Shown here in pieces: positions 158 through 11,043 of a stretch of 11,043 bases of DNA. Source of the DNA: Pseudomonadota bacterium. GTDB lineage: Bacteria > Pseudomonadota > Gammaproteobacteria > Burkholderiales > Thiobacillaceae. The notes under the pieces are model-generated. The model ran no database searches. It was not told the origin of the DNA and worked only from the letters and a program-made list of their open reading frames with translations. The position numbers and the translations under genes were made by a program. The stretch is from NCBI GenBank assembly GCA_021821425.1, contig JAKACL010000077.1, positions 1-11,043 on the forward strand. Reading direction: 5' to 3'. The number at the start of each line of letters is the position of its first letter. Position 1 is the first letter of the stretch.

Positions 158-1138
158 ATGTCAGCCACGCTTCAGGATCAGTTCGGACGCCGCATCGATT
201 ACGTGCGCCTGTCGGTGACCGACCGTTGCGACCTGCGCTGCAGCTACTGCATGCCGGAAGGCTTCAAGGGCTTCGAGGAGCCCGAGCACTGGCTCGATTT
301 CGACGAGATCGAGCGCCTGATCGGCGCGTTCGCCCGGCTCGGCGTCAGCCGCATCCGCCTGACCGGCGGCGAGCCGCTGCTGCGGCGCGACATTTCGGAT
401 CTTGCCAGGCGCATCGCTGCCTTGCCCGGCGTCGACGACCTGTCGCTGTCGACCAACGCCACCCAGCTCGACAAGCACGCGCAGGCGTTGAAGGCCGCCG
501 GCGTCACGCGGCTCAATGTCAGCCTCGATTCGCTGCAGCAGGCGCGGGTGGAAAAGATCAACGGCCGCGACGTGCTGGCGAAAGTGATGGCGGGCCTCGC
601 CGCCGCGCAGGACGCGGGCTTTGCGCCAATCAAGCTCAACATGGTGGCGCTCGCCGGCAGCAACGACGACGAGATCGACGAAATGGTCGCGTTCTGCATG
701 CAGCGCGGCTTCGTGTTGCGCCTGATCGAATCGATGCCGATGGGCGCCACCGGGCAGAACGCCGAATACCTCGACCTGCAGCCGGTGAAGGAACGCCTGC
801 GCCGGCAGTTCGACCTCGTCGAAACCACGCTGCCCGGTGCCGGCCCCGCACGCTACTTGGGCACGGCCGACGGCCGCTTCAACGTCGGCTTCATCACGCC
901 GATCTCGCAGCATTTCTGCGAAACCTGCAACCGCGTGCGCATCGCCGTCGACGGCACCGCCTACATGTGCCTGGGGCAGGACGAGAAATTCGAGTTCCGT
1001 CCGCTGCTGCGCGGCGGCTGCAGCGATGTCGAACTGGAAGCGGCGATCGTCCATGCCATCAACCTCAAGCCCGAGCGCCACGAATTCCGCGAGGCGCCGC
1101 ACAAGATCCTCCGCTTCATGTCGATGACCGGCGGCTAA
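158..1138 (+). CDS. moaA: GTP 3',8-cyclase MoaA (molybdenum cofactor biosynthesis)
   Basis: MoaA is a cytoplasmic radical SAM enzyme that rearranges GTP to 3',8-cyclo-7,8-dihydro-GTP, the first step of molybdopterin synthesis; MoaC acts next. The 326-residue protein has the radical SAM motif CX3CX2C at Cys24, Cys28 and Cys31, and a TGGEP motif. The second cluster motif CX2CX13C is at Cys254, Cys257 and Cys271. The protein ends in Gly-Gly, as functional MoaA proteins do. I chose the ATG at 158 because the protein then starts like family members; extending the frame to 101 would run through the putative ModE site. No good Shine-Dalgarno sequence precedes it. The stop codon overlaps that of the convergent EgtB/SenA-like gene (CTAA shared). 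No other molybdopterin gene is in the window. Confidence 0.96.
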   Translation: MSATLQDQFGRRIDYVRLSVTDRCDLRCSYCMPEGFKGFEEPEHWLDFDEIERLIGAFARLGVSRIRLTGGEPLLRRDISDLARRIAALPGVDDLSLSTNATQLDKHAQALKAAGVTRLNVSLDSLQQARVEKINGRDVLAKVMAGLAAAQDAGFAPIKLNMVALAGSNDDEIDEMVAFCMQRGFVLRLIESMPMGATGQNAEYLDLQPVKERLRRQFDLVETTLPGAGPARYLGTADGRFNVGFITPISQHFCETCNRVRIAVDGTAYMCLGQDEKFEFRPLLRGGCSDVELEAAIVHAINLKPERHEFREAPHKILRFMSMTGG

Positions 1139-2292
1139 GCCGGACTCACCGTCCGGAAACCCGCGAACGGGTCGCGCCGCTCGGGCAGGTAGAAATTGCG
1201 GAAGCCGGCACGTTTGAGCGAAGGATCGGTGACCGGCCCGCCGCCGCGCAATTCGCCGTGGGTATGGAACCAGGGTTCGGAATAATCGTGATACGGATCG
1301 GGTGCAAAGCCCGGATACGGCGCGAACGGATCGCGCAGCCATTCCCATGCCCTGCCCCACTGAAAATCCGGATGGGCTGCCGCACGCAGCCACTGCGCGG
1401 CGGTCGGCAATTGCCGGCCCTGCCACGCGGCGAACGCCTCGGCCTCAAAACGGTTCACGTGCAGCATCGGTGTCTTCGGATCCGGATGCAGCCAGCGGTC
1501 GAAGTGGCGCGCCTGCCAGTCGCCGTCTGCCTGACGCCAGTACAGCGGATGGCGGGCGTCGTGCGTCTGGCGCCAGGCCCAGCCTGCGTCCGACCATGCT
1601 GAGCGCTGCCGATAACCGCCCGCCTCGATGAACTCGGCGAAGGCCGTCTCGGTCACCGGGATCGCGTCGATGTCGAATGCCGGCACCGCCACCGTGTGGC
1701 GCCATTTTTCATTGTCGAAAATAAACCCGCCGTCGGCTCCGCTCCCCAGCGCCACCTCGCCTTCGGCGAACACCTGCCGCGGCGCGAACTGCACGCCGCC
1801 CATTTGCGGCCACACGGGCGGCACATAGCCGAGATCCTGAAACGCCATCCACCAGGCTTCGATGTGCATCAGCTCGTGATACAGACACAGCTCGGCGAAG
1901 TAGGCGATGTCCCCGTCGAACGCATTGCGCAGGCGGGCGGACACGGCATCGGCCACCCGGCGCGCGTAGTCGTCGACTGCGGCCGGGTCGAGCAAGGGCA
2001 GGTCCCAGCGCGTGTCGTGCGGCACGGCCGAGGAATCGTACAAGGCATCGGCGCCTGCCAGCAGGCTGGGGAGGCGCGTGCCGTCGGCACGTTCGCGCAA
2101 ACACCAGCGCTCCTGGAACCAGACGAGATGTCCGTACTCCCACAACGGCGGATTCAGATGCCCGGCGCGCGGCCCGAGCCAGCCGCCGTCAGGCAGGCAT
2201 TCGATCAGCGCACGCAGCCGGCCGCGCGCCTGCGCAAGCAGATCGATGAGGGTGTCTGCGCTGAACGCGCTGACGGGATGAGCCGGGTTCAT
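1135..2292 (-). CDS. EgtB/SenA-family nonheme iron C-S or C-Se bond-forming enzyme
   Basis: This 385-residue protein has two domains: an N-terminal DinB-like helical domain (about 15-155) and a C-terminal formylglycine-generating-enzyme/sulfatase-modifying domain (about 175-385). The iron-binding HX3HXE is at His139, His143 and Glu145, with a further candidate His at 55 in YGHLVWF. The C-terminus carries the typical RNFYLPERRDPFAGFRT stretch. EgtB oxidatively couples hercynine to gamma-glutamylcysteine or cysteine for ergothioneine; its relative SenA couples hercynine to a selenosugar for selenoneine. Segments such as NPPLWEYGHLVWFQERW and LYDSSAVPHDTRW resemble, from memory, betaproteobacterial members of the SenA type. 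The gene is divergent from selD by about 50 bases, with the hercynine-forming egtD after selD. A TTG at 2316 would add 8 residues; the ATG at 2292 is preferred. Family is sure; sulfur versus selenium substrate is open. Confidence 0.85.
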   Translation of the reverse strand: MNPAHPVSAFSADTLIDLLAQARGRLRALIECLPDGGWLGPRAGHLNPPLWEYGHLVWFQERWCLRERADGTRLPSLLAGADALYDSSAVPHDTRWDLPLLDPAAVDDYARRVADAVSARLRNAFDGDIAYFAELCLYHELMHIEAWWMAFQDLGYVPPVWPQMGGVQFAPRQVFAEGEVALGSGADGGFIFDNEKWRHTVAVPAFDIDAIPVTETAFAEFIEAGGYRQRSAWSDAGWAWRQTHDARHPLYWRQADGDWQARHFDRWLHPDPKTPMLHVNRFEAEAFAAWQGRQLPTAAQWLRAAAHPDFQWGRAWEWLRDPFAPYPGFAPDPYHDYSEPWFHTHGELRGGGPVTDPSLKRAGFRNFYLPERRDPFAGFRTVSPA

Positions 2293-2342
2293 GTTATATA
2301 AAGGCGTAGTGACCAACCGAATTCTAGGCGCCCACTCTCACG
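2293..2342. promoter_or_regulatory. Divergent promoter region between EgtB/SenA-like gene and selD
   Basis: Only about 50 bases separate the two divergent starts, so the promoters and any shared operator must lie here or inside the coding ends. The AT-rich stretch GTTATATAAA (2293-2302) is the only promoter-like signal, and it touches the minus-strand start codon. No convincing -35 element at standard spacing was found for either direction. Confidence 0.35.
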
Positions 2343-3428
2343 ATGGGCGAATTTGAAAAAATGAGCGACCCCCAATTCGACGCACCCATCCGCCTGACCC
2401 AGTTCTCCCACGGCGGCGGCTGCGGCTGCAAGATCGCACCCTCGGTGCTGCGCGACATCCTGTCCGACACGCCCTTCGCCTCGCATGTTGCCGCCGCGTT
2501 TCCCGACCTGCTGGTCGGCATCGAGCACGGCGACGACGCCGCGGTGTACAGGCTCAACGACACGCAGGCGATCGTCGCGACCACCGATTTCTTCATGCCC
2601 ATCGTCGACGATCCGTTCGAGTTCGGCCGCATCGCCGCGACCAACGCGCTGTCCGACGTCTACGCCATGGGCGGGAAACCGCTGTTCGCGCTGGCCATCG
2701 TCGGCATGCCGATCGGCAAGCTGTCCAACAGCGTCATCCGGCAGATCCTCGCCGGCGGCGAGGCGGTGTGCAAGGCCGCCGGCATTCCCATCGCCGGGGG
2801 GCACTCGATCGATGCGCCGGAACCGATCTATGGCCTGGTCGGCATCGGTGTGGTCGATCCGCGCCGCGTCAAGCAGAACAGCGGCGGCGAAGCCGGCGAC
2901 CATCTCATCCTCGCCAAACCGCTGGGCGTCGGCATCTACAGCGCAGCACTGAAAAAGAGCCTGCTGAGCGACGACCAGTACGCGGCGATGATCGCCGCCA
3001 CCACCCAGCTCAATACGCCCGGCGCCGATCTGGCCGCGATCGACGGCGTGCATGCGATGACCGACATCACCGGCTTCGGCCTGCTTGGCCATCTGCTCGA
3101 AATCACCCGCGCCTCGACCGTGGCCGCGCAGGTCGACCTTGCCCAGCTGCCCCTGCTGCCGGGCGTGGCGGCCCTGGCGCAGGGCGGCCACATCACCGGC
3201 GCCAGCGAGCGCAACTGGACGAGCTACGGACACGAAGCCCATCTCTCAGGCATCGCCGACTGGCAGCGCGCGCTGCTGACCGACCCGCAAACCAGCGGCG
3301 GCCTGCTGGTGAGCTGCACGTCCGAATCCAGGGACGCGGTACTGGACACCTTCCGCCGCCACGGCTTTGCGAACGCGACCGAAATCGGCCGGCTGCAGGC
3401 CGGCACTGGCGTGACGATCGTGGCCTGA
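2343..3428 (+). CDS. selD: Selenide, water dikinase SelD (selenophosphate synthase)
   Basis: SelD uses ATP to turn selenide into selenophosphate, the selenium donor for selenocysteine, for 2-selenouridine in tRNA and, as SenC, for selenosugar and selenoneine synthesis. The 361-residue protein (355 from the alternative ATG at 2361) has the N-terminal IRLTQFSHGGGCGCKIAP segment with the catalytic Cys and Lys; the active site uses Cys, not selenocysteine. It also has the ATP-site Asp-rich motifs GDDAAVY and TTDFFMP, and the family motifs NALSDVYAMG, GGHSI, MTDITGFGLLGH and TDPQTSGGLL. The 2361 start matches the E. coli SelD length better; neither start has a clear Shine-Dalgarno. It is divergent from the EgtB/SenA-like gene and directly abuts egtD. 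No selA, selB, tRNA-Sec or mnmH is visible, so the local clients appear to be the small-molecule genes. Confidence 0.95.
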   Translation: MGEFEKMSDPQFDAPIRLTQFSHGGGCGCKIAPSVLRDILSDTPFASHVAAAFPDLLVGIEHGDDAAVYRLNDTQAIVATTDFFMPIVDDPFEFGRIAATNALSDVYAMGGKPLFALAIVGMPIGKLSNSVIRQILAGGEAVCKAAGIPIAGGHSIDAPEPIYGLVGIGVVDPRRVKQNSGGEAGDHLILAKPLGVGIYSAALKKSLLSDDQYAAMIAATTQLNTPGADLAAIDGVHAMTDITGFGLLGHLLEITRASTVAAQVDLAQLPLLPGVAALAQGGHITGASERNWTSYGHEAHLSGIADWQRALLTDPQTSGGLLVSCTSESRDAVLDTFRRHGFANATEIGRLQAGTGVTIVA

Positions 3429-4379
3429 GTGGGATTCGCGTTCACCGACCTTTCCGTCGACCGCGACGATCTGCGCGACGACGTGCTGACGGGGCTGGCA
3501 GCCAGCCCCAAATCCATTCCGCCCAAGTATTTCTACGACGCGGCAGGCTGCCGCCTGTTCGAGGCAATCTGCGCGCAACCCGAATACGTGCTGTGCCGCA
3601 CCGAGCAGACGCTGATGGCTGCCCGCATGCCCGACATCGCCGCCGCCATCGGCCCGGTGGATGCCATCGTCGAGCCGGGCGCGGGCGATTGCATCAAGGT
3701 GCGCCGGCTGCTCGACGCGCTGCATCCGGCGAACCTCGTCGTGATGGACATTGCCGGCGCGCCGCTGGCCGCGGCGGCCGAGTCCCTCGCCCGCGATTAT
3801 CCGGACCTAGCCGTCACCGCGCTGGGCATGGACTTCATCCACGACCTCGAAGCGGCCACCCCGTATCTGCCTGAAGGCCGGCGGCTCGTCTACTACCCCG
3901 GCTCCAGCATCGGCAACTTCCCGCCCGACGCGGCAACCGCGCTGCTTGCGCGCTTTCGCCGGCTCGCCGGCGAGGACGGCCAGCTGCTGATCGGCTTCGA
4001 CCTCAAGAAGGATCCGCAGCGATTGCACGCCGCCTATAACGACGCGGCCGGCGTCACCGCCGCCTTCAACCTGAACCTGCTGGCACGGCTGAACCGCGAG
4101 CTGGGTGCCGATTTCGACCTGACCCGTTTCCAGCATTACGCGTTCTACAACCCGATGGCCGGCCGCATCGAGATGCATCTGGTCAGCCTCGCCGAGCAGG
4201 ACGTTAACATCGCAGGGCAGCGCGTTCATTTCGCGCTGGGCGAAACGCTGCATACCGAGCATTCCTACAAGTTCCGCTGCGACGAATTCAGTTCGTTGGC
4301 GAAAACCGCCGGCTGGTCGCTGGCCGGGGAATGGCAACACGAAGGATTCGCGGTGCAGCTCTACCGCGGATCCTGCTAG
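3429..4379 (+). CDS. egtD: L-histidine N-alpha-methyltransferase, EgtD family
   Basis: EgtD trimethylates the amino group of histidine with three S-adenosylmethionine molecules, giving hercynine, the shared precursor of ergothioneine and selenoneine. The 316-residue protein (mycobacterial EgtD is about 320) matches the Methyltransf_33 family throughout. It has PPKYFYDAAGCRLFEAI near the N-terminus, a SAM loop EPGAGD at 82-87, and YYPGSSIGNFPP at 155-166. Further on are LLIGFDLKKD, AAYNDAAGVTAAFNLNLL and TEHSYKF, where Glu277 and Ser279 fit the histidine-binding Glu-x-Ser pair known in mycobacterial EgtD. The GTG start follows the selD TGA with no gap and in the same frame, implying an operon and likely translational coupling. 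Its stop overlaps that of the convergent HD-GYP gene (CTAG). Confidence 0.92.
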   Translation: MGFAFTDLSVDRDDLRDDVLTGLAASPKSIPPKYFYDAAGCRLFEAICAQPEYVLCRTEQTLMAARMPDIAAAIGPVDAIVEPGAGDCIKVRRLLDALHPANLVVMDIAGAPLAAAAESLARDYPDLAVTALGMDFIHDLEAATPYLPEGRRLVYYPGSSIGNFPPDAATALLARFRRLAGEDGQLLIGFDLKKDPQRLHAAYNDAAGVTAAFNLNLLARLNRELGADFDLTRFQHYAFYNPMAGRIEMHLVSLAEQDVNIAGQRVHFALGETLHTEHSYKFRCDEFSSLAKTAGWSLAGEWQHEGFAVQLYRGSC

Positions 4380-6374: not shown

Positions 6375-7841
6375 ATGGCCACCCTTGAATCGCTCGTCTT
6401 CGACAACGGCTTCGCCCGCCTGCCCGAAGCCTATTACTCGCGCGTCTGCCCGACCCCGGTTCCCGATCCTTATCTCGTCTGCTACAGCCCGGAAGCGCTG
6501 GCACTGCTCGACCTCGACGAGCGCGAAATGACGCGCCCGGAACTGATCGAGACGCTGGCCGGCAACCGGCTGCTGCCGGGCATGGACGCGATCGCTGCGC
6601 TCTATGCCGGGCACCAGTTCGGCCACTATGTGCCACAGCTCGGCGACGGCCGCGCGATCCTCCTGGGCGAAGTGAAGAATGCCGCCGGCGAAGGCTGGGA
6701 AGTCCAGCTGAAGGGCGCCGGCCGCACCCCCTATTCGCGCGGCGGCGACGGCCGCGCGGTGCTGCGCTCGAGTATCCGCGAGTTCCTGTGCTCGGAAGCG
6801 ATGCACGCGCTCGGCATCCCCACCACGCGCGCGCTGTGCATCGTCGGCAGCGACCGCCCGGTCTACCGCGAGGACGAGGAGACCGCCGCGCTGGTGACGC
6901 GGCTGGCGCCGAGCTTCGTGCGCTTCGGCTCGTTCGAGGTGTTCTACTACCGCAACCAGATCGAGCCGATCAGGCAGCTGGCCGACTACGTCATTGCGCG
7001 CTACTACCCGGACCTGAAAACCCTCGTCGACCCCTACCCGGAATTCCTGCGCCAGGTGAGCTTGCGCACCGCCGAGCTGATGGCGCAGTGGCAGGCGGTC
7101 GGTTTCTCGCACGGCGTGATGAACACCGACAACATGTCCATCCTCGGTCTCACGCTCGATTACGGCCCGTTCGGCTTCCTCGACGCCTTCGATCCCGGCT
7201 ACGTCTGCAACCATTCCGACACCGGCGGCCGCTACGCCTTCGACCAGCAGCCCGACGTGGCGGCGTGGAACCTCACCAAGCTGGCGCAGACGCTGGTGCC
7301 GCTGATGTCGGTGGAAACCGCGTCGCAGGCGATCGGCGAATACCCTCAGGTGTTCGGCAAGGCCTATCTCGAACGCATGGCCGCCAAGTTCGGCCTGCCT
7401 CCGGGCAGCGAGACCGCCTCGCACGTGATGGATGCGCTGCAGCTGATGGCGCAGAACCACGTCGACTACACCATCTTCCTGCGCCGGCTGTGCGATTTTG
7501 ACAGCAGCACGGGGGCAGCCAACGCGCCGCTGCGCGACCTGTTTCTCGACCGCGCGGCCTTCGACGCCTGGGCGGCGCGCTACGCCGCCGCGCTGCGCCA
7601 GCAGGGTTCAAATGACGCCGAACGCGCTGCGGCGATGCGCGCGGTCAACCCCAAGTACCTCCTGCGCAACCACCTCGCCGAAATCGCCATCCGCCGGGCT
7701 GCAGACGACCGCGATTACAGCGAGGTGAACCGCCTGCACACGCTGCTGATGCATCCATTCGACGAGCAGCCCGAACACGAGGCCTACGCCGCCGAACCGC
7801 CTGACTGGGCAAGGAAGATTGAGGTAAGCTGCTCTTCGTGA
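6375..7841 (+). CDS. selO: Protein adenylyltransferase SelO (YdiU/UPF0061), cysteine form
   Basis: SelO is a pseudokinase-fold enzyme that transfers AMP from ATP to Ser/Thr/Tyr of target proteins and is tied to oxidative-stress responses. The 488-residue protein has the ATP-site segments LGDGRAILLGEV and EVQLKGAGRTPYSR at about 89-121. The active-site stretch HGVMNTDNMSI leads to LDYGPFGFLDAF; Asp252, Asn253 and Asp262 coincide with the catalytic and metal residues described for Pseudomonas syringae SelO. It ends in EVSCSS, the bacterial cysteine counterpart of the selenocysteine tail in animal SelO, so it does not itself need selenium. The ATG at 6375 fits family N-termini. Its TGA overlaps the GTG of the lipoprotein gene (GTGA), so the two are translationally coupled. 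Confidence 0.95.
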   Translation: MATLESLVFDNGFARLPEAYYSRVCPTPVPDPYLVCYSPEALALLDLDEREMTRPELIETLAGNRLLPGMDAIAALYAGHQFGHYVPQLGDGRAILLGEVKNAAGEGWEVQLKGAGRTPYSRGGDGRAVLRSSIREFLCSEAMHALGIPTTRALCIVGSDRPVYREDEETAALVTRLAPSFVRFGSFEVFYYRNQIEPIRQLADYVIARYYPDLKTLVDPYPEFLRQVSLRTAELMAQWQAVGFSHGVMNTDNMSILGLTLDYGPFGFLDAFDPGYVCNHSDTGGRYAFDQQPDVAAWNLTKLAQTLVPLMSVETASQAIGEYPQVFGKAYLERMAAKFGLPPGSETASHVMDALQLMAQNHVDYTIFLRRLCDFDSSTGAANAPLRDLFLDRAAFDAWAARYAAALRQQGSNDAERAAAMRAVNPKYLLRNHLAEIAIRRAADDRDYSEVNRLHTLLMHPFDEQPEHEAYAAEPPDWARKIEVSCSS

Positions 7842-9897: not shown

Positions 9898-9922
9898 CGA
9901 CAGGCTGAAGTGACTACATAAC

Positions 9923-9949
9923 AAAACCGGGGCACATGGCCCCGGTTTT
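9923..9949. terminator. Bidirectional intrinsic terminator
   Basis: An 11-base perfect stem, AAAACCGGGGC and GCCCCGGTTTT, with a 5-base loop ACATG, gives an A-tract on one side and a T-tract on the other. It can end the membrane-protein gene from the left and the superoxide dismutase remnant from the right. A close copy lies at 10857-10882. A smaller hairpin, GGAAGC/GCTTCC (9960-9976), follows it. Confidence 0.85.
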
Positions 9950-9986
9950 CATTTCAGAGGGAAGCGCAAGGCTTCCGCAAAGCCGC

Positions 9987-10225
9987 TTAAGCGAAATTCG
10001 CTTCCGCAAACTTCCAGTTCACCAGCTTGTCGAGGAAGGTCTCGACGAACTTGGGGCGCAGGTTGCGGTAGTCGATGTAGTAGGCATGCTCCCACACGTC
10101 AATGCACAGCAGCGCGGTGTCGCCCGTGGTCAGCGGGGTGCCGGCGGCGCCCATGTTGACGATGTCGACCGAGCCGTCGGCCTTTTTCACCAGCCAGGTC
10201 CAGCCGGACCGAAGTTGCCGACAGC
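9987..10225 (-). pseudogene. sodB: Superoxide dismutase (Fe/Mn type) C-terminal remnant
   Basis: The minus-strand translation ending at TAA 9989-9987 is the C-terminal domain of an Fe/Mn superoxide dismutase: SGWTWLVKKADGS, NMGAAGTPLTT and DVWEHAYYIDYRN, with the Asp and His metal ligands of DVWEH, then the LVNWKFAEANFA end. Upstream, the codons for AVGNFG (about 10225-10209) are in a different frame: a single base is missing between the Gly and Ser codons of NFGSGW. Beyond about 10225 the similarity stops, so the N-terminal part, with the first two metal-binding histidines (over half of the roughly 190-residue enzyme), is gone. The gene is therefore both truncated and frameshifted and cannot make active enzyme. 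The breakpoint lies beside the toxin-antitoxin operon. Confidence 0.88.
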
Positions 10226-10249
10226 CCGAAGCGGCAGGACCGCGCCGGA

Positions 10250-10279
10250 TTGACATATCCTATTTGATATAGCCACAAT
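10250..10279 (+). promoter_or_regulatory. Candidate promoter/operator of the toxin-antitoxin operon
   Basis: A perfect -35 hexamer TTGACA (10250-10255) is followed after 18 bases by CACAAT (10274-10279) as a poor -10. Between them is an inverted repeat, ATATC, six bases, GATAT (10255-10259 and 10266-10270). It could be the autoregulatory operator for the XRE antitoxin, as is usual for such operons. The predicted start of transcription falls almost at the toxin ATG, and no Shine-Dalgarno is seen, so the mRNA may be leaderless. Confidence 0.45.
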
Positions 10280-10284
10280 ACGAC

Positions 10285-10569
10285 ATGTGGCAAATCGAGG
10301 AACACCGTCGGGTCGACAAGCAGCTTTCGGGCGGCGTGCCGGTCGAGGTGCTGAAGCGCTACGAAAAATGGAAAGACATCGCTCGCCTTTCGGGTCCGCC
10401 GGGCTTGCGCGCGATCAAGGGGTTTCACGACGAAGCCTTGTCGGGTGAATGGAAGGGCTACCGTTCGTCCCGACTCGGGCTTCAGTGGAGAGTGATCTAC
10501 CAGGTCATCGCCGACGTTTTTCTGATTCAAGTCGTTCAAGTGACTGCCCACGATTACCGGAGACCCTGA
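10285..10569 (+). CDS. Type II toxin, RelE/HigB-like (ParE/RelE superfamily)
   Basis: A 94-residue basic protein. The C-terminal half, LSGEWKGYRSSRLGLQWRVIYQV and then VVQVTAHDYRRP, matches the RelE/ParE superfamily, whose members mostly cleave mRNA on the ribosome. The GYRSSRL...WRVIY core and the terminal HDYRR resemble HigB/RelE mRNA interferases, with Arg/His residues near the end as candidates for catalysis. The N-terminus is helical and charged (WQIEEHRRVDKQL). It lies one base upstream of the XRE antitoxin gene; toxin-first order is typical of higBA modules. Whether it is HigB proper or another RelE branch is not settled. The ATG at 10285 is the only sensible start. Confidence 0.85.
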   Translation: MWQIEEHRRVDKQLSGGVPVEVLKRYEKWKDIARLSGPPGLRAIKGFHDEALSGEWKGYRSSRLGLQWRVIYQVIADVFLIQVVQVTAHDYRRP

Positions 10570-10570
10570 T

Positions 10571-10831
10571 ATGAAAAACTTTCGTCCTGCCAAGAAGCGC
10601 GTCGAGGTCTCTGTCGGCGAGTCTGTCCGTATCCTGCGCGAGCTCCAGGAACTCAGCCAAAGCCAGCTCGCCGAGTTGACCGGCATTCCCCAGTCCACCC
10701 TCTCCGCCATCGAAAACGGCCGGGTCAATCTTGGCGTTGAGCGCGCGAAGGTGCTTGCCCGCGCCCTCAAGTGCCATCCCGCCGTGCTCGTATTCCCCGG
10801 TTGGGAAGTCCCGCTGGATGCCGCCGCATAA
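10571..10831 (+). CDS. XRE-family antitoxin (HigA-like)
   Basis: An 86-residue protein with an XRE/Cro-type helix-turn-helix: SVRILRELQELSQSQLAELTG, then IPQSTLSAIENGRVNLGVER and AKVLARALKCHPAVLVFPGW. The Q-SQLAELTGIPQSTLSAIENGR pattern, split across helices 2 and 3, is typical. It follows the toxin stop by one base. Antitoxins of this type neutralise the toxin by direct binding and repress the shared promoter through the helix-turn-helix; the ATATC/GATAT repeat upstream of the toxin is a candidate site. The basic N-terminal 15 residues (NFRPAKKRVEVS) may contact the toxin. A terminator follows. Confidence 0.88.
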   Translation: MKNFRPAKKRVEVSVGESVRILRELQELSQSQLAELTGIPQSTLSAIENGRVNLGVERAKVLARALKCHPAVLVFPGWEVPLDAAA

Positions 10832-10882: not shown

Positions 10883-10905
10883 CATTTCTGCATGGAAGCT
10901 AGGGC

Positions 10906-11043
10906 GTGTTAACACGAATTTCGCGTCCGCGTTGCCGCGAGAAAGCGATGGATGCAAGGCGCGGCGCGCCGGCAAGGGCCCTCCCTTGCCAAGCGGCGCA
11001 ACGCCGCAGACGCGCTTTCTCGCGGCAACCCGAAGGGACGGGT
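10906..11043. repeat. Large nested palindromic element, runs off the window
   Basis: It begins with the palindrome GTGTTAACAC (10906-10915). A perfect 17-base inverted repeat follows: GTTGCCGCGAGAAAGCG (10931-10947) and its complement at 11013-11029. Inside it is a perfect 8-base pair, GGCAAGGG (10971-10978) and CCCTTGCC (10983-10990). The intervening arms are partly complementary, so about 100 bases could fold into one long stem. No open frame of a transposase is seen. It may be an intergenic palindromic repeat, a MITE, or one end of an insertion sequence continuing beyond 11043. Confidence 0.6.

Follow-up and report, generated by a model that had tools for sequence, protein, structure and literature searches.

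A candidate selenoneine locus of the split kind in Thiobacillus, with SenB predicted to be encoded elsewhere

Our results suggest that three neighbouring genes, senA, selD and egtD, would cover three parts of a selenoneine pathway, namely the making of selenophosphate, the making of hercynine and the final step, and that its middle enzyme, SenB, is encoded elsewhere; we put the probability of this reading at about 0.87. The genes lie in a stretch of 11,043 bases (the window, the whole DNA analysed), together with moaA, an HD-domain protein, a DoxX/HvfX-family protein, selO and two more proteins (Table 1). In the proposed pathway SelD would make selenophosphate from selenide and ATP, a trans-encoded SenB would turn selenophosphate and a UDP-sugar into a selenosugar, and EgtD would form hercynine by methylating histidine. 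Using iron and oxygen, SenA would join hercynine and the selenosugar into a selenoxide, the breakdown of which would yield selenoneine. The same SelD probably also serves SelU in the selenation of tRNA and, in some of the relatives, SelA in selenocysteine formation. We infer from the relatives that the window's own genome carries SenB, and by analogy the enzymes would work as in Variovorax; selenoneine production by the window's host is a prediction made from sequence.

Table 1. The trio and its intergenic region within the window
Feature	Positions	Strand	Evidence
senA, selenoneine synthase family (non-haem iron enzyme), 385 aa	1135..2292	-	NF041186, PDB matches, tree, diagnostic columns
divergent intergenic region senA/selD, 50 bases	2293..2342	.	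alignment of 29 sequences
selD (role of senC), selenide, water dikinase, Cys type, 361 aa	2343..3428	+	TIGR00476; E. coli SelD 3u0o
egtD, L-histidine N-alpha-methyltransferase (hercynine supply), 316 aa	3429..4379	+	TIGR03438; structures 4uy6, 4pim

Identity of the SenA enzyme

Judged by its sequence features, the divergent gene of the trio encodes SenA. Its product passed the SenA model NF041186 (432.1 bits, cut-off 420) and failed the classical EgtB model TIGR03440 (247.3 bits, cut-off 360). Note that the clade to which it belongs scores near the NCBI cut-off, with nine family genomes just under it at 399-418 bits. The sequence-only reading had described a DinB/FGE enzyme with an HX3HXE motif, and both features were confirmed, as DinB_2 and FGE-sulfatase domains and as H139-x3-H143-x-E145; this motif and H55 occupy columns common to the SenA and EgtB rows. 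The nearest solved structures were those of SenA (8ryz and 8k5i, E 4e-78 to 5e-78), followed by OvsA and then by EgtB.

A quick IQ-TREE analysis covered 97 of the 127 rows, the Thiobacillus sequences having been thinned and L045 being too short to enter. Classical EgtB formed a single clade (31 rows, support 100) and the window enzyme fell outside it; clustering with it would have spoken against the sequence-only reading. The enzyme was placed in a 19-row clade (support 100) with Thiobacillus, other Hydrogenophilales-type and three further betaproteobacterial loci, and grouped with the characterised SenA 8k5i (27 rows, support 85). This group was nested in a larger side of the tree (63 rows, support 89), of which OvsA is a member too. 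Moreover, the enzyme is SenA-type at 17 of 18 diagnostic columns and EgtB-type at one, the columns having been set by comparing 34 senB-linked SenA rows plus 8k5i with 30 EgtB rows, and the 48 rows of the window's kind, L160, L168 and L192 having been kept out. A classical EgtB was rejected on model scores, tree and diagnostic columns. At the columns where OvsA and SenA differ, W63, A146, P340 and W341 among them, the window enzyme is SenA-type. Thiobacillus genomes are the nearest relatives found, and the window itself appears to come from a Thiobacillus. The closest relative found (L001, from the Thiobacillus sp. MAG G001) has a SenA that is 85% identical.

SelD, EgtD and the layout of the locus

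The two genes on the other strand also proved to be what had been proposed, a Cys-type selD and an EgtD-type methyltransferase. The window SelD scored 429.6 bits against TIGR00476 (cut-off 125) and matched E. coli SelD (3u0o) at E 9.8e-103, with SHGGGCGCK aligned to SHGAGCGCK, so that the Cys/Lys stretch of the E. coli enzyme is kept. EgtD scored 374.5 bits against TIGR03438 (cut-off 290.9) and matched the EgtD structure 4uy6 at E 2.8e-57, as well as 4pim. On re-check the coordinates of the three ORFs held, and all three frames are open and conserved. As had been noted earlier, selD and egtD abut and senA diverges from them across 50 bases: egtD begins with GTG immediately after the selD stop and senA begins with ATG, while selD has an alternative in-frame ATG at 2361. 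A TATATAA-like stretch touches the senA start in most of the 29 aligned sequences (the window and 28 relatives).

Profile scans of the nine window ORFs revealed no SenB, no classical EgtB and no other ergothioneine gene, so the reported absence of SenB, egtA, egtC and egtE holds within the window. No known RNA family reached its gathering threshold there. The intergenic region is a candidate promoter, from which senA and selD could possibly be under shared control. A plasmid home for the window was considered and rejected: of the 144 plasmid records that matched the query in part, not one covered 80% of it.

Other parts of the window were also inspected. The selO gene (6375-7841) is on the same stretch as senA in 25 of the 67 loci collected; the window SelO ends in SCSS, so the residue near its C-terminus is Cys rather than selenocysteine. 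In 9917-10831 (minus strand), a C-terminal piece of what we take to be a superoxide dismutase resembles the relatives up to about 10225; beyond that point a toxin of the RelE/StbE family, together with an HTH protein, takes its place. About 142 bases of 10900-11043 recur in L009, L014 and L022 with 85-96% identity, forming a dispersed repeat.

The neighbourhood is conserved in relatives: of the 67 loci, several of which end at contig edges, 31 have senA, selD and egtD as direct neighbours, and moaA adjoins senA in 28/67. Seven loci of the window's kind (L005, L028, L030, L038, L040, L043 and L067) have egtD by senA with selD absent there, and L039, from Hydrogenophilus sp., has egtD, senA, selD and senB inside about 6 kb. 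Genome-wide searches were made for 42 of the 67 loci, omitting L003, L018, L031, L044-L048 and L050-L066. EgtD was present in all 42 of these SenA-bearing genomes (above cut-off in 41, with a partial match below cut-off in G012) versus 1 of 52 SenA-less genomes (p 4e-26), the latter set consisting of 32 genomes with SenB and 20 of those without it, G216 left out; the single positive, G104, carries classical EgtB. In three genomes (G010, G011 and G022; loci L011, L012 and L024) egtD is absent from the senA locus and adjoins a classical egtB instead, and in G013 and G020 it adjoins an oxidoreductase-SelD fusion. A fusion of this type, of about 760 residues, lies beside egtD in L175 (4122-8129) and L176, preceded in L175 by a TIGR04282 glycosyltransferase, and long SelD-related frames occur within the sen clusters of L157 and L065.

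SelD was found in 38 of the 42 SenA-bearing genomes, four lacking it at E 1e-40; a second SelD is fused in five genomes and plain in G034. SelU was above cut-off in 35/42 and SelA in 25/42, which indicates that the window selD is probably not specific to selenoneine and is probably shared with other selenium uses. The closest relative has SelU and gave no SelA match, and in G040 and G042 selD adjoins selU rather than senA. Since classical EgtB was also above cut-off in 6/42, some relatives may make ergothioneine as well, sharing EgtD.

SenB away from SenA and without it

SenB (TIGR04348) was above cut-off in 40 of the 42 genomes bearing SenA of the window's kind, G019 and G035 having SenA and no SenB found (2/42; completeness not given). 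The SenB of the closest relative scored 440.7 bits (cut-off 300), resembles solved SenB structures and keeps all nine tested residues (N20, T23, H58, R61, T83, T85, R155, K158 and E231), whose active-site roles are given in PMC10891094. The distant SenB that had been offered as one option fits these genomes, in most of which it lies away from the senA locus. The senB of L039 was the only one seen in the fetched stretches around senA of the window's kind, 33 of 45 of which extend 5 kb or more to either side, and the window locus itself is not a senA-senB-selD cluster. Among the two-gene genomes of the G001 family, senA and senB were within 10 kb in 6 of 58, and farther apart or on another contig in 52/58, versus 23 of 28 within 10 kb in the order sample (Fisher p 6e-11, relatives treated as independent). 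The two genes are often on different contigs, and the true distance is then not measurable; on single contigs the separation was about 105 kb in G032 and several hundred kb in both G210 and G212. Four genomes outside this family (G044, G097, G120 and G144) also show the split.

These counts come from two surveys, with G001 and a few others in both. The family survey (117 genomes) counted 60 SenA, 51 above cut-off plus the nine at 399-418 bits, which were included because no full-length classical EgtB exceeds 347 bits there; G216 was counted as having EgtB only, and G219 and G226 (partial, contig edges) stayed outside the 2x2 table. The order survey counted 31 SenA, 29 above cut-off plus G118 and G155 by tree, and left the sub-cut-off matches of G071, G081 and G161 unplaced. 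SenB was present in 58/60 SenA-bearing versus 26/55 SenA-less genomes of the family (Fisher p 6e-10, genomes treated as independent), and in 28/31 versus 9/89 of the order. SenA without SenB above cut-off was seen in five genomes over both surveys (G019, G035, G075, G101 and G146).

The reverse situation was seen in 32 SenA-less SenB genomes over both surveys, 30 of which have SelD and one EgtD. SelD is also found in 16 of the 20 searched genomes lacking both SenA and SenB (as a fusion in one, as a partial match in another), so that the presence of SenB is not explained by SelD alone. All nine tested residues are kept in 29 of the 30 SenA-less genomes whose loci were fetched (30/32), the remaining one having Lys for Arg61. 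In a tree of 91 of 113 SenB rows, a 22-row clade with the Thiobacillus sequences contained no senA-linked row and mixed SenA-bearing with SenA-less genomes; note that the 65 sequences classed as unlinked include L063 and L183, whose senA lies 5-6 kb away. Some absences may reflect incomplete assemblies, but G085 (2,720,636 bases) and G111 (3,387,087 bases) are essentially single contigs with senB and selD adjacent, and neither yielded EgtD or a match of SenA grade (best E 1.8e-7 and 2.4e-11, respectively). The frequency of SenB in SenA-less genomes of the family, together with its preserved active site, suggests that SenB can be used independently of SenA. We give even odds to a wider proposal, in which selenosugars would have a second fate in Betaproteobacteria, independent of SenA and EgtD, and the Thiobacillus trio would tap this separately encoded supply to convert hercynine to selenoneine.

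L200, L210 and other loci retain senB, sometimes adjoining selD, with neither SenA nor EgtD detected in their genomes. The senB of Thiobacillus, like that of several SenA-less genomes, is surrounded by housekeeping genes, none of them an obvious partner. The small ORFs just before the Thiobacillus senB were rejected as a partner, being antisense to an ORF (seen in L098) that has a relative in L226, a SpoU-type methylase. Nor does EGGAHV versus EGGANV mark linked and orphan SenB, EGGANV occurring in 28 of 40 senA-linked sequences. G192 has two senB genes, one by senA and the other near a MacB/HlyD-type transporter (L212, L213); this second arrangement recurs in L202, L219, L221, L223, L232 and L239, and in L213 and L219 a SPOUT methyltransferase gene lies between senB and the transporter.

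Alternative explanations and known systems

The distance between senA and senB in 52 of the 58 two-gene family genomes, and the five genomes with SenA and no SenB above cut-off, would also fit a SenA that in this clade uses a selenium donor not made by SenB, or one that, like OvsA, yields a different histidine selenide; OvsA forms a long branch within the SenA side of the tree. However, SenB nearly always accompanies SenA, the window enzyme is SenA-type at positions where OvsA departs, the four named above among them, and the presence of EgtD in 42/42 genomes points to hercynine, so that we consider this explanation very unlikely. Less likely still is an ordinary EgtB making ergothioneine, with selD as a chance neighbour serving selenocysteine or selenouridine. 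The adjoining egtD and the other jobs of SelD, seen in the SelU and SelA counts of the relatives, would agree with it, but the enzyme fails the EgtB model while passing that of SenA, has one EgtB-type diagnostic column against 17, and belongs to a group in which six of the 42 relatives carry a separate classical EgtB and 58 of the 60 SenA-bearing family genomes carry SenB.

The least likely possibility is that the trio is a relic whose SenB was lost from the window's own genome. It is favoured by the fact that this SenB is deduced from relatives; against it, the three ORFs are open and conserved, and the closest relative found has SenB. We retain the reading of the trio as part of a split selenoneine pathway, and the sequence-only proposal of a candidate selenoneine locus is supported by the SenA model, structures, tree and columns. 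Note that, because SenB occurs without SenA, its presence supports SenA function less than strict pairing would.

This reading would extend predicted selenoneine synthesis to sulfur-oxidising Thiobacillus, and implies that split pathways would escape any search that looks for a compact senABC cluster. SenB without SenA or EgtD, in organisms with essentially complete genomes, predicts another use of bacterial selenosugars. Our literature search found no paper that treats selenoneine in Thiobacillus, and none that treats SenB in the absence of SenA, an earlier mention in the two primary papers being possible. The senABC cluster of Variovorax paradoxus was reportedly described by Kayrouz in 2022.

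The individual steps of this split kind of selenoneine locus are known from Variovorax, and production in Thiobacillus, a SenB gene in the window's own genome and the second role of SenB are predictions. As in the V. paradoxus selenoneine cluster, which is treated in PMC9814287, PMC10702425, PMC10891094 and PMC10903977, the window has the SenA and SelD/SenC families and the same predicted product; unlike it, the window locus lacks SenB, which is elsewhere in the relatives, and has EgtD directly downstream of SelD. With classical EgtB-EgtD loci (TIGR03440, TIGR03438) it shares EgtD and the DinB-FGE domain pair, but its enzyme is not a member of the EgtB clade and does not reach the EgtB cut-off, and selD stands in between. 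Finally, the window SenA is related to the OvsA selenoxide synthase (PDB 8ux5) and shares its side of the tree, whereas it keeps SenA-type residues where OvsA departs and is adjoined by EgtD.
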